Below are positions 899 through 13,708 of a DNA stretch of 21,585 nucleotides, one piece after another; the first letter of the stretch is position 1; every line of letters starts with the position of its first letter. A program made the translations under genes and the position numbers. The DNA is from a virus. Under the pieces are notes generated by a model. It made no database searches, was not told where the DNA came from, and saw only the letters and a list, made by a program, of their open reading frames with translations. Location: IMG/VR virus record IMGVR_UViG_3300010160_000272, positions 1 to 21,585 of that record. One strand, given 5' to 3'.

Positions 899-1465
899 TT
901 AGCGCACCCCGTAAAGTGCGAAGGAACTGTATTGAACAAAGTTTGCTGCGTTTGCTGAAGTAATAGCAATGGTAGTGATTGCTGCTGTATTCATCCATAA
1001 ACCAGAACTTAAACGAACTTGTCCTGCTCCATTGTTATCATATCCATTGAGCGAACGCACAGTTTTATATTTGTTGGTGTCTTTGTAGTCAAGAATGTCA
1101 ATTACTCCAACACCAAAGACACCAGATGTAGATGATGCTGCTGCTACAACAGAACGAGTGTTAAATGTAATAGATGAGCCATCTGAAAATGCGCCAGCAG
1201 TTGCGCCGTCACCATATAAAACGTGTGCTGCATAATTGCCAGCAGAATCAGAGTTAAACCTCAACTGATTATTATCTTCTTGATTGGCTCTATCTGTTCT
1301 TGTTAAGAATCTAATTTGTAAATGGCGATAGGTAGCAGGAATAGAACTAAAAGTTATGCTTGAGGCAGTAGTTGAAAGCGTAGTTGTCGCGATGCTGTCA
1401 AAGTCTGTACCTGGCGCCCAGAGGTTGCCTGAAATGGCACTAGCCATAATTCCTAGCATTGGCAT
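899..1465 (-). CDS. Tail / surface protein, paralog of the partial gene at 1-491
   Basis: This 188-aa Ser/Thr/Asn-rich protein has no catalytic motif. It shares with the partial gene on the far side of the HNH gene the segment SSITFSSIPATYRHLQIR (about residues 36-53), a LW-(N/S)T-AIT-I-(I/L)T segment, and the terminal LYGVR, so the two arose by duplication. The chosen ATG at 1465 overlaps the stop of the upstream gene (TAATG), and a GGAG lies about 10 bases upstream. An in-frame ATG six codons later (MASAISG) would give a start closer in length to the paralog and cannot be excluded. The predicted fold is beta-rich. By position, at the distal end of the tail module after fibre-like genes, it is probably a virion surface or host-recognition protein, but this is inference. 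Confidence 0.75.
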   Translation of the reverse strand: MPMLGIMASAISGNLWAPGTDFDSIATTTLSTTASSITFSSIPATYRHLQIRFLTRTDRANQEDNNQLRFNSDSAGNYAAHVLYGDGATAGAFSDGSSITFNTRSVVAAASSTSGVFGVGVIDILDYKDTNKYKTVRSLNGYDNNGAGQVRLSSGLWMNTAAITTIAITSANAANFVQYSSFALYGVR

Positions 1466-2313: not shown

Positions 2314-3210
2314 TTACTTACTGTAGTGGATTCTTATTGGGTACTTGTCTTGCAGTTTAAGAGCTTCATCATTTAGTTTTTGTTGGTATAGAGCATAGAT
2401 ATAACGAGAAGATGCCACACCTGCTGTGCTTGGGATCTTGGTATCGTTAAGATCAGCTTCTGCTGAACTCAAGTTAATTCGACCGGCATCTACATAAGAT
2501 AGTAATTTGTAACAAGCTCCAAGAGTTATTACCTCTACGGATGAAGCAGGTAAGCCTGTTACATCTGCGTAATCATCTGTATTATTGTCTAAAGTATTAG
2601 GAATGGTTGTGTACCATACCTGTACTGTGCGTCCAGGTTGGATATTTTCATAAAGGTTTACTGTCTTTTGTGTATTAAATGTTGCTACGTTTGCCATTAA
2701 GTCTGCACGCCAACGGTTAATTGGTAGCCATTCAAGGCTAGAACCTGTTGTCTGCCAAGACATATAAAGTATTGATTCTAAATCATCTGGCAGGGCATAG
2801 GTGGTTTGGCTTGCATTAAAGGTAAAGGTATATGAGGCTACAGACCAAAGTTTAGGATAGACACTATTGATAACATCATTGATAGCTTTCTTAATCATTA
2901 CTCGCGGAAATGTTGGAGTAAGAGTTATCTGTGCATACTGGGCGTGCGGTGAAGCTGGTGTATTTTGGTAACCTCTACCAAATCCTGGTGCTGCATTAAG
3001 CGTGCTACTTGACTGGTTAAAGTTATCAATCCAAATAAGTTCATCATCAATTTCAATGATGCCTTTGGCTAAGTTAGAACTTGAACCAATAGTCATAGCT
3101 GTATCAGTAGATGTTATAGCAGCATTAAGATACGTTATTCTATCTTGACGCAGGGTGTATCCAGCTAAGGAGGCCCTAACCTCGTCTATCATATCGCTAA
3201 GCGTTGGCAT
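2314..3210 (-). CDS. Putative head-tail connector / tail adaptor protein
   Basis: This 298-aa protein starts with a short helix (MPTLSDMIDEVRASL), followed by a beta-rich segment with the pattern GIIEIDDELIWIDNF (about residues 49-63) and GFGRGYQNTPASPHAQYA (about 75-92). The helical FPRVMIKKAINDVINSVYP and beta-rich repeats follow. An N-terminal helix, an embedded 'IEIDDEL...RGY-T--H' module, then an FPR-IN--I--VYP helix is a layout I have seen in proteins annotated as head-tail adaptor or tail-tubular-like in aquatic phages. It would bridge the portal ring and the tail. Its place among fibre genes rather than next to the capsid gene is somewhat unusual. The ATG at 3210 overlaps the glycosyltransferase stop (TAATG), with AAAGGA just upstream. 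A fibre or baseplate-like protein is the main alternative. Confidence 0.6.
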   Translation of the reverse strand: MPTLSDMIDEVRASLAGYTLRQDRITYLNAAITSTDTAMTIGSSSNLAKGIIEIDDELIWIDNFNQSSSTLNAAPGFGRGYQNTPASPHAQYAQITLTPTFPRVMIKKAINDVINSVYPKLWSVASYTFTFNASQTTYALPDDLESILYMSWQTTGSSLEWLPINRWRADLMANVATFNTQKTVNLYENIQPGRTVQVWYTTIPNTLDNNTDDYADVTGLPASSVEVITLGACYKLLSYVDAGRINLSSAEADLNDTKIPSTAGVASSRYIYALYQQKLNDEALKLQDKYPIRIHYSK

Positions 3211-4271
3211 TATTTCCTTTCATACCAGCCATCTCCCCATAGAGTTAGCAGTCTTCCAAAGTATTGCTCGTATTGTGGTGCTATGGCATCTAACGAATAA
3301 GTCGCTACTGCCCTCTTATGTATTGCTACTGGGTCTAAGTCCTTAACCCACTCTGTTGCTGCTGCAAACTCCATTGCATTTCTACAACGGTATCCAGTAA
3401 CACCTTGTGGGTTAGTCTCTGTAAAGGCTCCCCAGTCTGTAGTAATTGTTGGAGTACCGCACATCTGCGCCTCAATTACTATGTTACCGAAAGGTTCTAT
3501 GTATAACGTTGGGGCAAATAGTGCGATAGCACCGCCCATTAACTTTGTTCGTTCTTCTACACCTACTGGCCCAACCCAATCGCCATACTCAATCTTTGGG
3601 TCTTTACCAGGTCCTGCCATAATGAGCTTTAAGTTCATCTCTTTACAGACGTGCTGAACGATCTCAATACCTTTACGATCTATCATACGTCCAACGTATA
3701 GGTAGTAATCTTCTTTCTTTTCTTGCAGCGGAAACATCTCTGGTTCTATGTATCCTGGTATAACAGCATCGTAGAAGTTGCCATCTACTAACGCCGGATT
3801 CTTAAAGGCAGAATAGACTGAGTGCATCCAAGCGTAAGACTCAAAGACTCGATACTTAGCAAACGTGCCAGCGTAACCAATACCAAACTCAACTGTCATA
3901 TGATCTGGGAAAGCATCAGCAATTGGTTTGTGTGATGCTCCACCAATAACGCAGATAAAATCTTTTTCTTCTATCCGCTTGCCAAGTTCTTCTATAACTT
4001 TGCCATTAAAGATCTGCCAGTGCGGTAGTTCATTGTTAAATTCTGCTTCGGTAAAATGTTTACCAGCTAGCGCTTCTTGCTGTTGCTCTTTGGTGATACA
4101 AGTAATTAACTCATCACACGGTGCTTCGTTCTCTTCGCTAGCATAAAGATAGACTGTATGCCCAAGACCATTCATCATCATACAGAAGCGTCGTACCTTT
4201 TCAGTAAAGGCACAGATAATGTATTCTTTAGTTGTTTGCGTATGCGGCAGGCTTATTACGTGGAATCTCAT
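3210..4271 (-). CDS. Glycosyltransferase, GT-B fold, family 4-like
   Basis: This 353-aa protein has the architecture of GT4 glycosyltransferases, which transfer a sugar from a nucleotide-sugar donor. The N-terminal domain has a divergent acceptor side (GLGHTVYLYAS near 35-45). The C-terminal nucleotide-sugar domain begins at LYVGRMIDRKG (191-201), continues with LKLIMAGPG (214-222), and contains the conserved E-x7-E motif in IEPFGNIVIEAQMCGTPTITTDWGAFTE (E259 and E267; read as two parts), followed by TGYRC. No signal peptide or membrane helix is visible, so it should act in the host cytoplasm. Start ATG 4271 lies nine bases after the upstream TAG; no strong ribosome-binding site is visible, so translation may be coupled. 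It lies directly behind a collagen-like fibre gene in the tail module. The acceptor is unknown; virion proteins and host surface glycans are both possible. Confidence 0.88.
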   Translation of the reverse strand: MRFHVISLPHTQTTKEYIICAFTEKVRRFCMMMNGLGHTVYLYASEENEAPCDELITCITKEQQQEALAGKHFTEAEFNNELPHWQIFNGKVIEELGKRIEEKDFICVIGGASHKPIADAFPDHMTVEFGIGYAGTFAKYRVFESYAWMHSVYSAFKNPALVDGNFYDAVIPGYIEPEMFPLQEKKEDYYLYVGRMIDRKGIEIVQHVCKEMNLKLIMAGPGKDPKIEYGDWVGPVGVEERTKLMGGAIALFAPTLYIEPFGNIVIEAQMCGTPTITTDWGAFTETNPQGVTGYRCRNAMEFAAATEWVKDLDPVAIHKRAVATYSLDAIAPQYEQYFGRLLTLWGDGWYERK

Positions 4272-4280
4272 AGAACTAGT

Positions 4281-6093
<1,813 letters not shown>

Positions 6094-7385: not shown

Positions 7386-7658
7386 CTACTCCTTAAAGGT
7401 CATTGAGATCCCATCAAAAGCCTTACCGCCTTCGTTGGAAAGTTTAACTGCTGCGTCTATATCAGCTTTTTTGGTAGAACGTGGTTCTATGCCTTGCCTT
7501 GTAGCATCAAAGTAAGACTGTAATTCTTTATCGTGCTGCTTAGCAGTAGGCAATTCTCTATGGTTTGCCATACCTACGCTCAACTCTAGTTCGCCTATCT
7601 TGCAACCAAAGCAACCTTCTACATAATCAAGGTGCGTGGTGCGTCTATGTAAACTCAT
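7386..7658 (-). CDS. Conserved small actinophage-like protein with EGCFGC motif
   Basis: This 90-aa protein begins MSLHRRTTHLDYVEGCFGCK and continues IGELELSVG; it has C16 and C19 in a CxxC pair. A helical half follows with DKELQSYFDATRQGIEPRST (about residues 43-62), KKADIDAAVKLSNEGGKAFD and a short end. A VEGCFGCK start followed by D-EL--Y---R--G--P and a helix with (A)--S---G-AFDG is a layout I recall from actinobacteriophage structural regions. The function is not known. The single CxxC pair could bind metal in a dimer or be a redox pair. Its ATG overlaps the upstream TGA (ATGA). Confidence 0.78.
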   Translation of the reverse strand: MSLHRRTTHLDYVEGCFGCKIGELELSVGMANHRELPTAKQHDKELQSYFDATRQGIEPRSTKKADIDAAVKLSNEGGKAFDGISMTFKE

Positions 7659-7975
7659 ACTATTGGTGTCACGTAATCACTGTAGCCAGCAGCGATAAGA
7701 ACCGCTGCTTGCTCGTTGCTAATCACGTACTCGTGTCCACCAAGGAAGTAGTAACTACACGCTGCTAGATCATCTTGGCTTGGTGTCTGCGTCATTACAA
7801 CAGTAGTACCAGTAACTAATAACGATTGACCACGTGCTACATCTGTAATACTGGTAGGAATGGCGCCAGTAACAGTTCCACCAGTAAGGCGCCGACCTGC
7901 AAGACGAGCATACTTAGAGTATGGCTCTGATACGTATGTCTCCCACCGCCAAGGTGTCGTTAATGTATATGCCAT
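7655..7975 (-). CDS. Small putative head-completion or tail protein
   Basis: This 106-aa protein is the first gene after the capsid gene and its terminator-like hairpin. ATG 7975 has AAAGG seven bases upstream. The N-terminal part is aromatic (MAYTLTTPWRWETYVSEPYS); the middle holds beta-type segments rich in Thr, Val and Gly; the end reads YVISNEQAAVLIAAGYSDYV. SDYVTPIV-type C-termini following an 'A--L-AAGY' helix occur in small phage head-tail proteins as I recall, but the match is weak. Position directly after the major capsid protein is typical of head-completion or head-tail connector proteins. Function inferred from position. Confidence 0.7.
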   Translation of the reverse strand: MAYTLTTPWRWETYVSEPYSKYARLAGRRLTGGTVTGAIPTSITDVARGQSLLVTGTTVVMTQTPSQDDLAACSYYFLGGHEYVISNEQAAVLIAAGYSDYVTPIV

Positions 7976-8031: not shown

Positions 8032-9213
8032 TTAACCGTTAGTTGCGGCTGACTCAATACGATAGAGTGCAGACTCACGAAGGCGAGCAAAGCCGCCGAA
8101 GTAGTACCAACCGATTGTGCGGAAACGACGTAGTGCGTCAATCTCTGGACCGATAACGGTTGAGATGTCTGCAGCTTGTGCTTCAGCCAATGCTTCACGA
8201 CCGGCAACAATTGCACGGTAGTTGTTGGTGAATGTAACAGTACCTGTATCAGCAGCTGAAGTAACGTTAGCTGTTGTCTTAGAATAGGTAAATGTTGTTG
8301 TTGTAGGTACAGATGCGATTGTAAATGTACCGTTAAGTGTTGTTGCAGTTGTAGCAGCAACTGTCACAACTTGGCCTACGCCAAGACCGTGAGCAACTGC
8401 TGTAGTAATTGTTGCAACGTTTGATGTCAGCGCAACGTTTGTGATAGTTGTGCTTGTTGCGATACCTGTAGCCAGCTTTAGACCGTTAAGAACACGTGGT
8501 GTCTCAACGATGAAAGCACCTTCAATTACGCCAACTGCGCCAGCCACGAATGGTGTGCGATCAACATACTTTGAAAGTTCCTGGAATCCACCAGTACCAG
8601 TTTCAGCACGAAGATCGGCTGATTGGCGTGGGTGTAGGTATGCAGCATACAGTTCGCCCATACGAGGCAGAGCCTTGTTTGTGCGTAGTGATACAACAGC
8701 GTTACGGATATCCGCAACTGTCATTGTGTCTACTGGCAGAACTTCTGCTGATGAAGTCGGAGTAGTTCCTGTTGGACCGTTTGAGTAGATAACGCCAGTA
8801 CCTGCTGACAGGACCTGACCTACTACGTTGTCAATGGAATCTGCTGCGTTGTAAGCGATGATATCAGCTAGTGCTGAGTCAACATCGTTGAATGAAGTTA
8901 GGTTTAACTTCTTTGTTGTTGTTACTGCTGAACCGTATTCGTTCAAAGTAACGGTAACCTGTGATGGGTTACCTAAAGCAATGGAAGATACATCAGATGT
9001 TTCTGTCAATGTTGAAGTGGCTTGTGCCAAATCTGAATAGATTGAGAATACAACTGATGATCCTGGCATTGCCTGTTGCACTGGCTTGACGTCAGCAAGA
9101 TTACGCATAACAGGAATGGAGCGAAGCGCCATTCTAACATACTGGTCGTATGCTGCTTGTACGAGATTGCTAATCGTCGAGCTAGAGGTGGTAGTACCTG
9201 TTGGAATTGCCAC
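8032..9213 (-). CDS. Major capsid protein, N4-gp56-like, with an inserted beta-rich domain
   Basis: This 393-aa protein follows the pattern of the N4-gp56 type HK97-fold capsid family: an N-terminal AAYDQYVRMALRSIPVMRNL helix (about 20-39), GSSVVFSIYSDL (51-62), the beta element VTVTLNEYGSAVTTTKKLNL (86-105), a spine-helix-like DVDSALADIIAYNAADSIDN (110-129), and a C-terminal YRAIVAGREALAEA followed by RTIGWYYFGGFARLRESALYRIE. Residues about 252-328 (nt 8230-8460) look like an insertion with VATITTAVAHGLGVGQVVTV and NGTFTIASVPTTTTFTYSK, a small beta domain seen elsewhere in phage virion proteins. The start is GTG at 9213; AAAGG lies ten bases upstream. It follows a scaffold-like gene. It would form the icosahedral shell. 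The family call rests on pattern memory. Confidence 0.88.
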   Translation of the reverse strand: MAIPTGTTTSSSTISNLVQAAYDQYVRMALRSIPVMRNLADVKPVQQAMPGSSVVFSIYSDLAQATSTLTETSDVSSIALGNPSQVTVTLNEYGSAVTTTKKLNLTSFNDVDSALADIIAYNAADSIDNVVGQVLSAGTGVIYSNGPTGTTPTSSAEVLPVDTMTVADIRNAVVSLRTNKALPRMGELYAAYLHPRQSADLRAETGTGGFQELSKYVDRTPFVAGAVGVIEGAFIVETPRVLNGLKLATGIATSTTITNVALTSNVATITTAVAHGLGVGQVVTVAATTATTLNGTFTIASVPTTTTFTYSKTTANVTSAADTGTVTFTNNYRAIVAGREALAEAQAADISTVIGPEIDALRRFRTIGWYYFGGFARLRESALYRIESAATNG

Positions 9214-9243: not shown

Positions 9244-9714
9244 TTAGAGTCCAGACAACTTAATCAGTTCGTCCAGTTCTTCTTTGCTATTTGTATTGAG
9301 TAGACGTTGCATAATGTCTGCGTTATGTTCTGGTGAAGCACCAGAGTCTGCAGTGTTTGTCATTCTCTTATACGAAGCAGCGTCGGCTGGATTCACATTA
9401 GGTGTTGCCTGGGTTTGGCTAGATTCATAGCCGAATACATCGGCGTAATCCTCTAACCATTTAGACACGGACTCCTCAGTTGGGTCAATGTCCTGTGGGA
9501 TAAATGAAGCGATCTTCGGATTTATCCCGCGACTTGCGAGGGCATCCTTGATTGATCTTTCGCGCTGCGCCTTGCTTAGTCCATCGAACTGTGAACGAAG
9601 TTCAGCAAGTTCTTTATCCTTTTGCTTGGATGCTTTGCGTAGTTGTTTAACAAGGTCGTTGCCGGTGTCTTCCATTGTGAAGTCATCGTCATCCTCGTAG
9701 TCGTAATTGGACAT
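9244..9714 (-). CDS. Scaffold-like protein for capsid assembly
   Basis: This 156-aa acidic, hydrophilic protein lies immediately upstream of the capsid gene. Residues 1-17 hold an acidic run (DYEDDDDFTMED). Residues about 22-55 (VKQLRKASKQKDKELAELRS and on) form a likely coiled coil. Then come RGINPKIASFIPQDIDPTEE (about 63-82), a WLEDYADVFGY segment and a disordered tail with a final helix (RLLNTNSKEELDELIKLSGL). The coiled coil, the INPKIASFIP-D segment and the WLE-YADVFG segment resemble scaffold proteins of actinobacteriophages as I recall. It would guide shell assembly and leave the head before packaging. The ATG has GGGAGAAGGA upstream. No protease domain is visible. Confidence 0.83.
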   Translation of the reverse strand: MSNYDYEDDDDFTMEDTGNDLVKQLRKASKQKDKELAELRSQFDGLSKAQRERSIKDALASRGINPKIASFIPQDIDPTEESVSKWLEDYADVFGYESSQTQATPNVNPADAASYKRMTNTADSGASPEHNADIMQRLLNTNSKEELDELIKLSGL

Positions 9715-9841: not shown

Positions 9842-11632
9842 TTAGTAAGCGCCAGCTCTATCTCTAACTAGTGCTGTGCTGGTTGCTCCAGATTGACCAC
9901 TAAAAGTGGCCTTCTCAAGTCCTGTAATTTTCTTGCGCTGCGTAGCAGCTGCTGTTTTTCCAGCAAGACCAAAGACTTCTGTCTCTGCTGTGGTCTGTGT
10001 ATAAGGATCTTGACCGTATATTGATGCTAGTTGTCCACCACGTGGAGCACCGCCAGCTACTGTCTCAAAGCCTTGTTGGGCTACAGCTTTAGTAACACCA
10101 GCAGCGCCAAGTTCTTCAGCGCGAGCCATACCAGTTTTAAGTCCGGCTTGTGTGGCTGCGCCACCGATTTCTGCTGCTGTAATCTTGCGCTTAATCTGTT
10201 CAATTGCGTTCTTAGGATCTAATGCGTAGGCAAGAATTTCACCATTTTTAATATCAGGGTAGAAGTCTTTTAGCGCTGCTAATACTTCTGGGTTAGATTT
10301 AAGAACACGATTTTGTGCGTTCATAATGCGATCTTCTAATTCAACATTACTTACGTCGTTAGCAATAAGTTCTTGAAAACCTAACTGCACTCCATTTTTA
10401 CCACGAGCATAGTAAGACTCTGGTAATCCATAGTTACGCATAATGTTTTGGTATTGATCTTCAAGGGCAAGATAAGTTGCTTCGTTAATAGCGGCATAAC
10501 CATTTTTAATACGATCTGCGTTAGCAGCAAAACGATCTAGGTATGGCTTAGTCTGGCGCAGACGAATGGCGTATTCAGATGGAGATACGTTTTCATCTTG
10601 AATCAAAGCACGGATAGGTTCTACTAGATCACCTAAACCCCATACATCAAATTGATCTTTTAATAAATCAAAAGCTGAAGTGCGGTTAGCCAGTGCTTGA
10701 GCACGAGCATTGCCTGCTGCCAATTCAGTAGCAGCGTTAGTTGCTACTTGCCCTGATTGAACTTTCCAAGTTTCAACAGCGGCATCCATTTCCGCTTGTG
10801 TAGCAAAGTATTCTGTTTGGCCAGTAGTTGGATTATTCCAAGTAAACTTTTTACCAGTAGTATCTGTACTTTCAGATGGTTCAAAAGTTACGTTGCCATC
10901 AGGATCGGTAACTTCATATCCAATAAACTTACCGGTTATGTCATACTTTGGAGCTTTCTTTGTGGTCTTAGCAACTGTTGCTGCTTCAAAGCCAACGGTG
11001 TCATCGCTATAAACAATGTCATAACCAATTAGTTTTCCGTTTTCATCATACTTTGGAGTCTTGGACTTAACAGTTCTTTCTGCAGGTGGCCCTGTTGCGC
11101 CAGTAACGCCTGTAGGCCCTGTAGCACCTGTTGCACCAGCACCAGTAGCGCCTGTTGCGCCTGTACCTGTAGCACCTGTAGGCCCTGTAGCACCTGTTGC
11201 ACCAGCACCAGCACCAGCACCAGTAGCGCCTGTTGCGCCTGTACCTGTAGCACCTGTAGGACCAGTAGGTCCTGTTGCTCCGGTAGGCGTACCAAGACTA
11301 TAACGTGCTAGTGCATTTGCAGCATTTATAGCGTCTTGCTTTTTAATTAATTCATCACCTGTTGTACTTCTTACATTGTAAGGACTTTTTTCTGTTGCTA
11401 CTCTTTCTGCCTCTAAACGGGCAGCGTTCTGTGAATCAGTAAAACCTCCACCACCAGACTTGGTAGGGATACCAGCACCTTGTGCTGCTTTAGCTGCTTC
11501 CGCAGCAGCTGCTTTTTTAGTTTGTTCATCAGGCATCCCACCAGGGTCAGTAGTAATATAAGTTACAACTACTGCTTCTGCTAAAGGAACAACTTTTCCC
11601 TTTGTTGGGTCGTATGTATATTGAGCCATCAT
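9842..11632 (-). CDS. Putative internal virion protein with an interrupted collagen-like segment
   Basis: This 596-aa protein has an Ala-rich helical start ([16 protein letters not shown] near 39-54), a Gly/Thr segment at about residues 115-182 made of GAT, GPT and GVT triplets broken by single-residue G-T-G and G-A-G steps, and a pair of beta-hairpin repeats ([20 protein letters not shown] and [20 protein letters not shown]). A long helical C-terminus contains [20 protein letters not shown] and [17 protein letters not shown]. That last pattern recurs, to my memory, in structural proteins encoded near the capsid gene in aquatic phages. The ATG overlaps the upstream TAA (TAATG); a second ATG follows directly. 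Position between large virion proteins and the scaffold gene suggests a head-interior or ejected protein; a fibre is the alternative because of the collagen-like segment. Confidence 0.66.
11087..11133 (-). repeat. 47-base exact repeat inside collagen coding DNA (copy 2)
   Basis: This stretch is identical over all 47 bases to 5598-5644 in the tail fibre gene. Here it codes the C-terminal end of the Gly-X-Thr segment of the 596-aa protein. The upstream and downstream sequences of the two genes differ immediately outside the match. Confidence 0.9.
11109..11260 (-). repeat. 66-base tandem duplication with an in-frame 12-base expansion
   Basis: Plus-strand bases 11109-11182 recur at 11175-11260. 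The period is 66 bases (22 codons), and the second copy carries an extra gcaccagcacca (two 6-base units coding Ala-Gly steps). Apart from this insertion the copies are identical, so the duplication is recent. Because 22 residues are six triplets plus two G-x-G interruptions, each copy brings its own breaks in the triplet register. Confidence 0.88.
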
Positions 11633-12594
11633 TACCCCATAAATCCGAAGTCGCGGCCAATGTTAAGCACTGCTTTGGAAATCTCATCCTTAGCATCAGC
11701 TGTATATTGCCAGCGACTATCTTTGCGTAGTGCTCGTTGGAAATCGAATAGTGACATTTCGCCCTTATCTGTAATAGCAGAACGAAGTGTTGGGTCGTAC
11801 ATAGAAATAGTTTCTTCGTTGATTCCTAGTACGTTAGACATTAGTTGCTTGTATGGAGAATAAATAGAGCTAACGTCTGTTCCTTTTTCTACCATTGCTT
11901 TCAAGGTAGGAGGCAAACCAGTACCGGCAATACCACGAATGATCTGCTTGTAGTCTTCAACTGATTGACCAGAGGCAATCTTCTGTAGCCATCCTTGTAG
12001 TTGACCACCAAAGTTCTTTTGTAGATCAACACCGTTAGCGGTAGCAGTTGCTTGGAGTTCTTTTAGGGCATTACCCATAGCACCAGTTGGTTTAACTGTG
12101 CCTAAAGTAAATCCTTTAACAGCCTCATTAAAAATAATACTTTCTGGAGTACCATCTTTGTAATAGTTATCAAGTTGTTGATCTGTTAATTCTAAACCCT
12201 GACCTAGCAATTCACGCTTAACCCCTATTTTCCAAGCGTCTAAACTTTGCTTGTATAAAGGGGTATTTTCTAGGCTTAATAAGTAACGATTACGAGCATC
12301 GCTAGATAGTTTAGCAAAAGTAGTTTTACTAAAAGCATCTTGTGCTTCGGTATATTTCTTTTGCTTCCAGAGATCAAAGATATTTTTTAACTCATCAGCA
12401 TACTTAGAGTCTGGACCTAAGAGTGCTTCACCGATACCAAGGTTCTGACGGATGCTAGAAGATCCTGGACGGCCTGCTGGATACTTTAGGTCAAATGCTT
12501 CCTTAGCCTTAACACGCATACCGCCTTCGGGCATAGCATTTAAGGCAGCAAGATCTTGGTCGTACTGGAGTTGCTCGGTTGTGTTATCAGCCAT
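11632..12594 (-). CDS. Putative internal virion protein (320 aa)
   Basis: This 320-aa, mainly helical soluble protein has no catalytic signature that I recognise. Visible landmarks are [20 protein letters not shown] (about residues 21-40), an [20 protein letters not shown] helix near 105-125, a [20 protein letters not shown] segment near 200-220, and a C-terminus with [20 protein letters not shown] ending in DFGFMG. A terminal KD-RWQYT--A--EI------I-RDFGF pattern is familiar to me from structural proteins of freshwater phages of unknown role. It starts with ATG 12594 in an eight-base overlap with the upstream gene and has AGGAGG five bases upstream. Neighbours on both sides carry collagen-like segments. 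It is probably a head-interior or tail-related structural protein. Confidence 0.65.
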
Positions 12595-13708
12595 TGCTGC
12601 CTCCTAATTGTTTGAACATCCAGCTAGTAAAGTCAACGCGTTCTTTGCGTGCTAGATCTACGGGAGCTGCTTGTTTCAAGCCAGTCTCAATAGCCTGTGT
12701 TGCTTTCTCTGCTGTGTAACCAGGTGTGGTTTCATAAGTAGTGTTAGTACCAGACTTATTAGTTTTGGTAATAGTTCCTTCTTTAGCCATTGTTTTAATA
12801 GTATTAGTAAGGCTCTTGTACCAAGCCGTTGTTTTATCAACATCGCTAATCTCACGACCTAATAAACTAAGGGCGCTTTTGTTAACCATATCTTGAATTT
12901 CAGCATCAGTTAAATTAGTAATTGATTTTTGTGTTTTTGATGTAGGCCCACCAGCAGCAGCAGAAGTTACTTGTACTCCAGGACTAGCAATAAATGCTCG
13001 AAGATCTTTAATTTGCAGAGATGCTGGCAGTGATTGCAACGTTGCTGCTGCATCGCCTACAGCATTTTGAAATGCTATAGACCAAGTTCCATCAGTTGGA
13101 CCTTTATAGCCAAAGTTTTTCTTTAGGTCATTTTGAGCAGCAATAAGTAACTTTTTATTTTTAGGATCAGCAAGAGTATTGATTAAATCTGTAGCAGTTA
13201 TTTGTACTGGACCTGTGCCACCAGTACCGCCAGTACCGCCAGTAACACCTGTTCCGCCAGTTGGCCCTGTTGGACCAACAGGTTTGTATTTGCCAACGCC
13301 GGCTAACTTATCTTCGGCATCTTTAATGCCTTTTTCAATAAGAGTTGTATCTAAACCCTGTGCTTTGTAACGAGCAAGTAAAGATTTAGCATTATCAATG
13401 TTTGCTTGACTTGCTTTGTCAGATAGCGCTTTGCTAGCAGCAGTAATCTTATCCTTGTATTTATTAAAGTGGTCTGTGGCATCTGCAATTACTTTATCGG
13501 CAGCAGCCTTAGTAGCAGTTGCTGCTTTTCTAGCAGCTTCAAGTTCAGCAATTTTCTTTTTTCTTAATTCTTTGTAAGAGTCACCAGTAGGAACTCCAAC
13601 AGCTGCTCTTTCAGCGTCGCTTAAAGCGCCTTTGGCTTTGTCTAAAGCCTTTTTTGCTTTGACTACATCATCTCTATTCTTGAGATAGTCTTTTAGAGTT
13701 GCTGCCAT
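12587..13708 (-). CDS. Virion protein with coiled coil, short collagen-like linker and possible peptidoglycan-binding segment
   Basis: This 373-aa protein has an N-terminal charged coiled coil (about residues 1-140: AKKALDKAKGALSDAE, KKKIAELEAARKAATATKAA). A short Gly-X-Y linker follows (residues 145-166: GPTGPTGGTGVTGGTGG and on), then a segment near 185-215 (LLIAAQNDLKKNFGYKGPTD, GTWSIAFQNAV) resembling the Q--L---G-Y-G--DG-W---F--A pattern of peptidoglycan-binding domains. A final helical part contains LSLLGREISDVDKTTAWYKS. The ATG at 13708 has GGAGA eight bases upstream. Cell-wall contact during genome entry would suit a protein encoded beside the large virion proteins, but the peptidoglycan-binding match is partial and no lytic catalytic domain is visible. 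Confidence 0.62.
   Translation of the reverse strand: MAATLKDYLKNRDDVVKAKKALDKAKGALSDAERAAVGVPTGDSYKELRKKKIAELEAARKAATATKAAADKVIADATDHFNKYKDKITAASKALSDKASQANIDNAKSLLARYKAQGLDTTLIEKGIKDAEDKLAGVGKYKPVGPTGPTGGTGVTGGTGGTGGTGPVQITATDLINTLADPKNKKLLIAAQNDLKKNFGYKGPTDGTWSIAFQNAVGDAAATLQSLPASLQIKDLRAFIASPGVQVTSAAAGGPTSKTQKSITNLTDAEIQDMVNKSALSLLGREISDVDKTTAWYKSLTNTIKTMAKEGTITKTNKSGTNTTYETTPGYTAEKATQAIETGLKQAAPVDLARKERVDFTSWMFKQLGGSNG

Follow-up and report, generated by a model that had tools for sequence, protein, structure and literature searches.

The major capsid protein encoded by the virus record IMGVR_UViG_3300010160_000272 contains a beta-barrel domain of about 80 residues inserted in its A domain. 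The whole 21.6-kb record (21,585 nucleotides) was analyzed and is hereafter called the window. The domain was gained once, evolves faster than the rest of the protein, and has a homologue in a second virion-type protein of the same phages. Taken as a whole, the account that we favor, and consider probable, is that the insert is an accessory capsid domain that was acquired from a tail-type module, faces outward, and is likely weakly adhesive.

Most insertion domains known from HK97-fold capsid proteins are fixed and shared by entire groups, and their origin and use are therefore hard to test. In the present case, phages with and without the insert have capsid cores that are 83% identical, an unrelated insert occupies the same loop in other phages, and a homologue of the domain exists in another virion-type protein. 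With such material, the origin of the domain becomes traceable and its function testable by removal of the domain. The comparison also marks a loop of the capsid A domain as a site that tolerates whole domains.

The capsid protein contains an optional inserted domain

The capsid gene (8032-9213; like all its parts given below, on the minus strand) starts with GTG and encodes a 393-aa protein of the N4-gp56 family. The protein scored 96.8 bits against TIGR04387, for a cut-off of 60, with a match spanning residues 10-248, that is, up to the insert. It also matched phrog_1357 (E 2.6e-71) and, across the matched stretch, exceeded the profile by about 60 residues.

A sequence-only reading of the window had proposed that a beta-rich domain interrupts the C-terminal part of this protein at 8230-8460, which corresponds exactly to residues 252-328. 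This was borne out, as the segment was missing in aligned relatives. The actual limits were slightly wider, at about residues 245-329 (8227-8481), with predicted strands spanning residues 253-328. The insert is preceded by a conserved A-domain segment, ETPRVLNG (residues 237-244; 8482-8505), whose ETPR is kept family-wide and which aligned with N4 gp56 around VPEML, up to gp56 residue 300. It is followed by a second conserved segment, NNYRAIVAGREALAEA (residues 330-345; 8179-8226), kept in the forms with and without the insert.

The Beephvirinae of Streptomyces have a 320-aa capsid protein, ~43% identical to that of the window, in which a loop of 15-18 residues links ETPR to the G-x-[EQ]-A-[LM] segment, both of them conserved; the window has ~92 residues in this interval. 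Freshwater IMG/VR relatives (L272-L317) had a 13-15-residue loop in place of the insert, for instance ETPRVPYAINTNSPAVNVYKAIVAGREALAEA; their capsid proteins are 309-318 aa long and show 78-82% overall identity to that of the window. In one phage without the insert (L284), the capsid core was 83% identical to that of the window. Every one of the roughly 80-86 capsid proteins parsed from the window's clade carried the insert in frame. The segment is not present in all close family members and does not belong to the core; since close relatives do without it, we regard it as an optional add-on.

A few individual cases are worth recording. At L080:3733-3933, part of the inserted domain was deleted in frame, the rest of the capsid gene being intact and open. 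In Streptomyces phage JXY1 (L087:3025-3893), the record shows two CDS for the capsid gene, which a frameshift appears to have split. Last, annotated phages yielded no match in a tblastn search with the insert (77 aa), which the low-complexity filter probably masks.

The insert is predicted to fold on its own as a beta-barrel of the FCCH/endosialidase type

In the AlphaFold2 model of the whole capsid protein, the core was poorly modeled (mean pLDDT 61.5), but values of mostly 71-89 were reached in the strands of the insert (residues 254-328). Modeled alone, the insert gave an eight-stranded fold with a pLDDT of 86.8 and a pTM of 0.77, this being the best of five models that spanned pLDDT 62.8 to 86.8 and were built on a shallow alignment. 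These residues were thus modeled as a separate beta domain and not as an E-loop or as part of the core A domain, and the insert is predicted to be a small, autonomous, self-folding beta domain.

A Foldseek search with the insert alone against solved structures returned, with probability 1.00, the endosialidase 4hiz (TMq 0.68) and the FCCH domains of Uba1/Uba6 (TMq 0.61-0.72). This indicated a fold shared with the endosialidase beta-barrel (PF12195) and with E1_FCCH (PF16190). Among predicted viral proteins, the top match had a TMq of 0.86 at 1.6 Å, and a baseplate J-like protein and a baseplate wedge subunit (TMq 0.81) were among the matches, which lay at 1.5-2 Å. These hits to phage baseplate and tail proteins agree with the earlier recognition, from the letters alone, of a beta domain known from such proteins. 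Sequence profiles also pointed, weakly, to endosialidase-barrel/FCCH kinship: the best E-values within the clade were 0.0011 for PF12195 and 0.0019 for PF16190, which fall short of the Pfam cut-offs, and the window's insert scored 15.7-16.3 bits against PF12195, for a gathering threshold of 35, and so does not qualify as a Pfam member. TAL effector entries of the PDB also matched the insert with strong E-values; we rejected these because they added up numerous very short repeat matches.

The insert likely faces outward and does not appear to stand in for a decoration protein

With the full capsid model as query, the top Foldseek matches were the coat proteins of P22, CUS-3, and Sf6. N4-like capsids came next, those of N4, Moo19, and B2 being matched with E-values of 4e-5 to 8e-4 and probabilities of 0.99-1.00, in agreement with an HK97 fold. 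Direct similarity to N4 gp56 was weak (hhalign probability 7.8). Residues 193-244 of the window's protein aligned with gp56 residues 250-300, from which it follows that the insert begins where the gp56 loop 300-328 begins.

In N4, gp56 loops 184-203 and 300-328 are reported to build an outer-surface protrusion by which domain DIII of the decoration protein is directed, and loop 300-328 contacts this decoration protein, gp17 (PMC11768535). In P22, a short stretch of the A domain separates the I-domain (222-345) from the P domain that comes after it (PMC9965877). Because the insertion site corresponds both to the outer-surface loop of N4 gp56 and to the position of the P22 I-domain, the insert is likely to face outward. 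Projection from the capsomer surface, as suggested in the sequence-only reading, is thus probable by analogy with these two systems. The capsid protein has a second variable surface loop (residues 136-165; 8719-8808), the only other internal region with markedly low identity within the clade; by sequence inspection, it sits opposite the gp56 loop 184-203.

The same reading had gone further and suggested that the insert takes the place of a separate decoration protein, which relatives without the insert would then encode. The contact between the corresponding N4 loop and gp17 is in line with this idea, as is the fact that the window has no recognized decoration gene close to its capsid gene. 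Gene content argues otherwise. The capsid gene is flanked by genes for a 156-aa scaffold-like protein, upstream (9244-9714, minus strand; phrog_7813, with weak matches to head scaffolding families), a 106-aa protein, downstream (7655-7975, minus strand; phrog_8987), and a 90-aa protein (7386-7658, minus strand; phrog_10483). A neighborhood comparison showed that these three genes flank it in phages with and without the insert alike, the gene order of the capsid region being identical. The 106-aa protein, the nearest candidate for a head accessory protein, is therefore common to both groups. Moreover, a comparison of five long contigs with the insert and five without it revealed no small structural gene specific to the latter. 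The only families found in at least three phages without the insert and in at most one with it were a glycosyltransferase-like protein, a cytosine methyltransferase (in two pieces), and a 102-aa protein that has no recognized structural role. Replacement of a decoration protein is thus not supported by the gene content of the relatives, and we consider it very improbable.

Other features of the window are noted here for completeness. Three proteins with collagen-like repeats are encoded in one structural gene block (4281-5759, 9842-11632, and 12587-13708, minus strand), and a putative glycosyltransferase-like gene, as judged from its sequence, lies among the structural genes (3210-4271, minus strand). 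Two proteins encoded at 3-518 and 899-1465 (minus strand) have similar starts, FSQIASTTLGSAASSVTFSSIAGTY and FDSIATTTLSTTASSITFSSIPATY, and probably arose by duplication, with an HNH-like gene (491-898) lying between the copies.

The insert was gained once, at a site prone to change

In a maximum-likelihood tree of capsid cores, built with the insert left out, the sequences that carry the insert formed a single clade (100/99) that arose among branches lacking it (99/94, 99/92), and a quicker tree with more rows concurred. The nesting of this clade in a grade without the insert indicates one gain. A second clade, which includes Caudovirales sp. ct2KA10, carries at the same place a different insert of ~90 residues (type B), whose origin on the tree is separate. 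Common ancestry of this insert with that of the window (type A) was considered and rejected, as profile comparison found no relation (probability 3.7). In one pair of sequences (L325:3188-3436 and L327:1565-1834), the capsid cores were 87% identical and the inserts at the same site only 42%, which makes the site a hotspot of change.

Within the window's clade, mean identity was 95% in the core versus 77% in the insert, the gap fraction 0.2% versus 11%, and the median dN/dS 0.097 versus 0.295. The insert is thus retained as a coding sequence under weaker constraint than the core, as expected for an exposed accessory domain. One could go further and view it as a neutral passenger of a surface loop in which beta domains are gained, swapped, or lost at little effect. 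The presence of at least two unrelated insert types in this loop, the divergence of inserts between L325 and L327, and the partial deletion in L080 would all suit this view. However, the dN/dS of the insert is well below 1, and the reading frame is kept in all of the ~80 clade members, so that neutrality appears improbable to us.

Selection for a structural role is the main rival to an accessory surface domain. The insert would then be an I-domain as in P22, stabilizing the subunit and contacting neighboring capsomers as a built-in cement. It does occupy a P22-like place, preceded by an A-domain strand and followed by the short A stretch into the P domain (PMC9965877; PMC5701804), and the coat proteins of P22, CUS-3, and Sf6 head the matches of the full model; yet the insert itself best resembles FCCH/endosialidase barrels, no P22 entry being present among the best 50 matches listed for it. 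Likewise, the domain is kept by nearly all clade members, and such retention under purifying selection after one gain would also be compatible with a structural role, but relatives whose cores are 83% identical do without it, it varies far more than the core, and the capsid gene of L080 is still open despite the partial deletion of the domain. We therefore consider a structural I-domain unlikely.

A homologous domain is found in a second virion-type protein

A profile of the capsid inserts matched the same domain in a virion-type protein of ~740 aa (about 725-746 aa; phrog_11667) encoded elsewhere by phages of this kind. Capsid and phrog_11667 copies were up to 71% identical, and phrog_11667 copies also occurred in phages without the capsid insert and in a single phage from the second clade. 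In the remaining phages, from both groups, the phrog_11667 protein was about 636-659 aa long and lacked the domain. Both of these virion-type proteins thus exist with and without the domain, which has come and gone in each.

We infer that the phrog_11667 protein is a tail protein, and its domain is a plausible source of the capsid insert. Transfer from phrog_11667 to the capsid protein would be the simplest order of events, because the branches without the insert that surround the insert clade have the tail-type copy; a tree of the domains alone (75-80 residues) was compatible with either direction. The tail-type copy was present in about 10 and absent from 15-17 of the phages with the capsid insert, versus present in 9 and absent from 4 of those without it. 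A reciprocal pattern, in which the domain would occur in the capsid or in the tail-type protein and not in both, faded with more contigs and was abandoned.

Loci encoding the phrog_11667 protein with or without the barrel were collected at L328-L333 and L339-L376. In L333, a phage with the other capsid insert, the barrel lies at residues 447-535, versus about 172-260 usually. In the contig of L005 (G001, 21581-23486), the phrog_11667 coding sequence is interrupted and occupies two frames, of 369 and 296 aa.

A proposed origin and role for the insert

We propose that a beta-barrel of the FCCH/endosialidase type, a common module of phage tails and baseplates, entered the capsid protein once, in the ancestor of one phage clade that would be, by its kin, of freshwater origin. 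The point of entry would be the A-domain loop that lies on the outer surface in N4-like capsids, and the likely source would be the homologous domain of the ~740-aa phrog_11667 protein of the same phages. The barrel would fold independently and, since it is part of the major capsid protein, would be displayed on the outside hundreds of times per particle. Its likeliest function may be the weak binding of cell-surface or extracellular material, in the manner of Hoc-type or tail adhesion domains, with capsid reinforcement as a second choice. That the domain is dispensable in close relatives, varies fast, and has a fold of tails and tailspikes, one of which binds polysialic acid through its barrel (PMC12632334), makes an optional surface domain with an adhesive role likelier than a structural one. 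Taken by itself, adhesion is a tentative assignment by analogy, possible and somewhat short of probable. A broader view is more doubtful still, namely that one HK97 A-domain loop might act as a docking site at which a phage group repeatedly gained beta domains of unrelated types, including one that came from a tail-type protein of its own, and so turned its shell adhesive.

Comparison with known systems

In the broad sense, an insertion domain is an autonomous unit that sits within the A domain and that relatives lack, and the window's capsid protein contains one. The closest parallel is the I-domain of P22-like phages (P22, Sf6, CUS-3), also a beta-barrel in the A domain of an HK97 fold and at the same topological place (PMC9965877, PMC5701804). 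The P22 I-domain has ~124 residues arranged in a six-stranded Greek key with D- and S-loops, whereas the window's insert has ~80 residues and eight predicted strands and is FCCH/endosialidase-like. Unlike the P22-like I-domain, it occurs in the N4-gp56 family and is missing from close relatives. N4 gp56 and the capsid proteins of other Schitoviridae (Moo19, B2) belong to the same capsid family, and the insert occupies the site of gp56 loop 300-328; N4 combines this loop with a separate Ig-like decoration protein, gp17, whereas the window phage has a whole domain built in.

In predicted fold and, weakly, in sequence, the insert resembles the endosialidase beta-barrel (PF12195; K1F, phi92) and the E1 FCCH domain (PF16190). 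The K1F barrel contains a polysialic acid site (PMC12632334). Those barrels belong to a tailspike or to the E1 enzyme, whereas the window's barrel sits in a capsid protein. Promiscuous Ig-like domains of virion proteins, such as BIG2 of the phi29 capsid, Hoc, and gp17, are also beta domains and occur in tail, capsid, and decoration proteins (PMC7602432); by its best matches, the insert, unlike them, does not have an Ig fold. Capsid insertion domains are thus already known as a kind, and what is new here is the fold, the capsid family, and the existence of pairs of phages with and without the domain.
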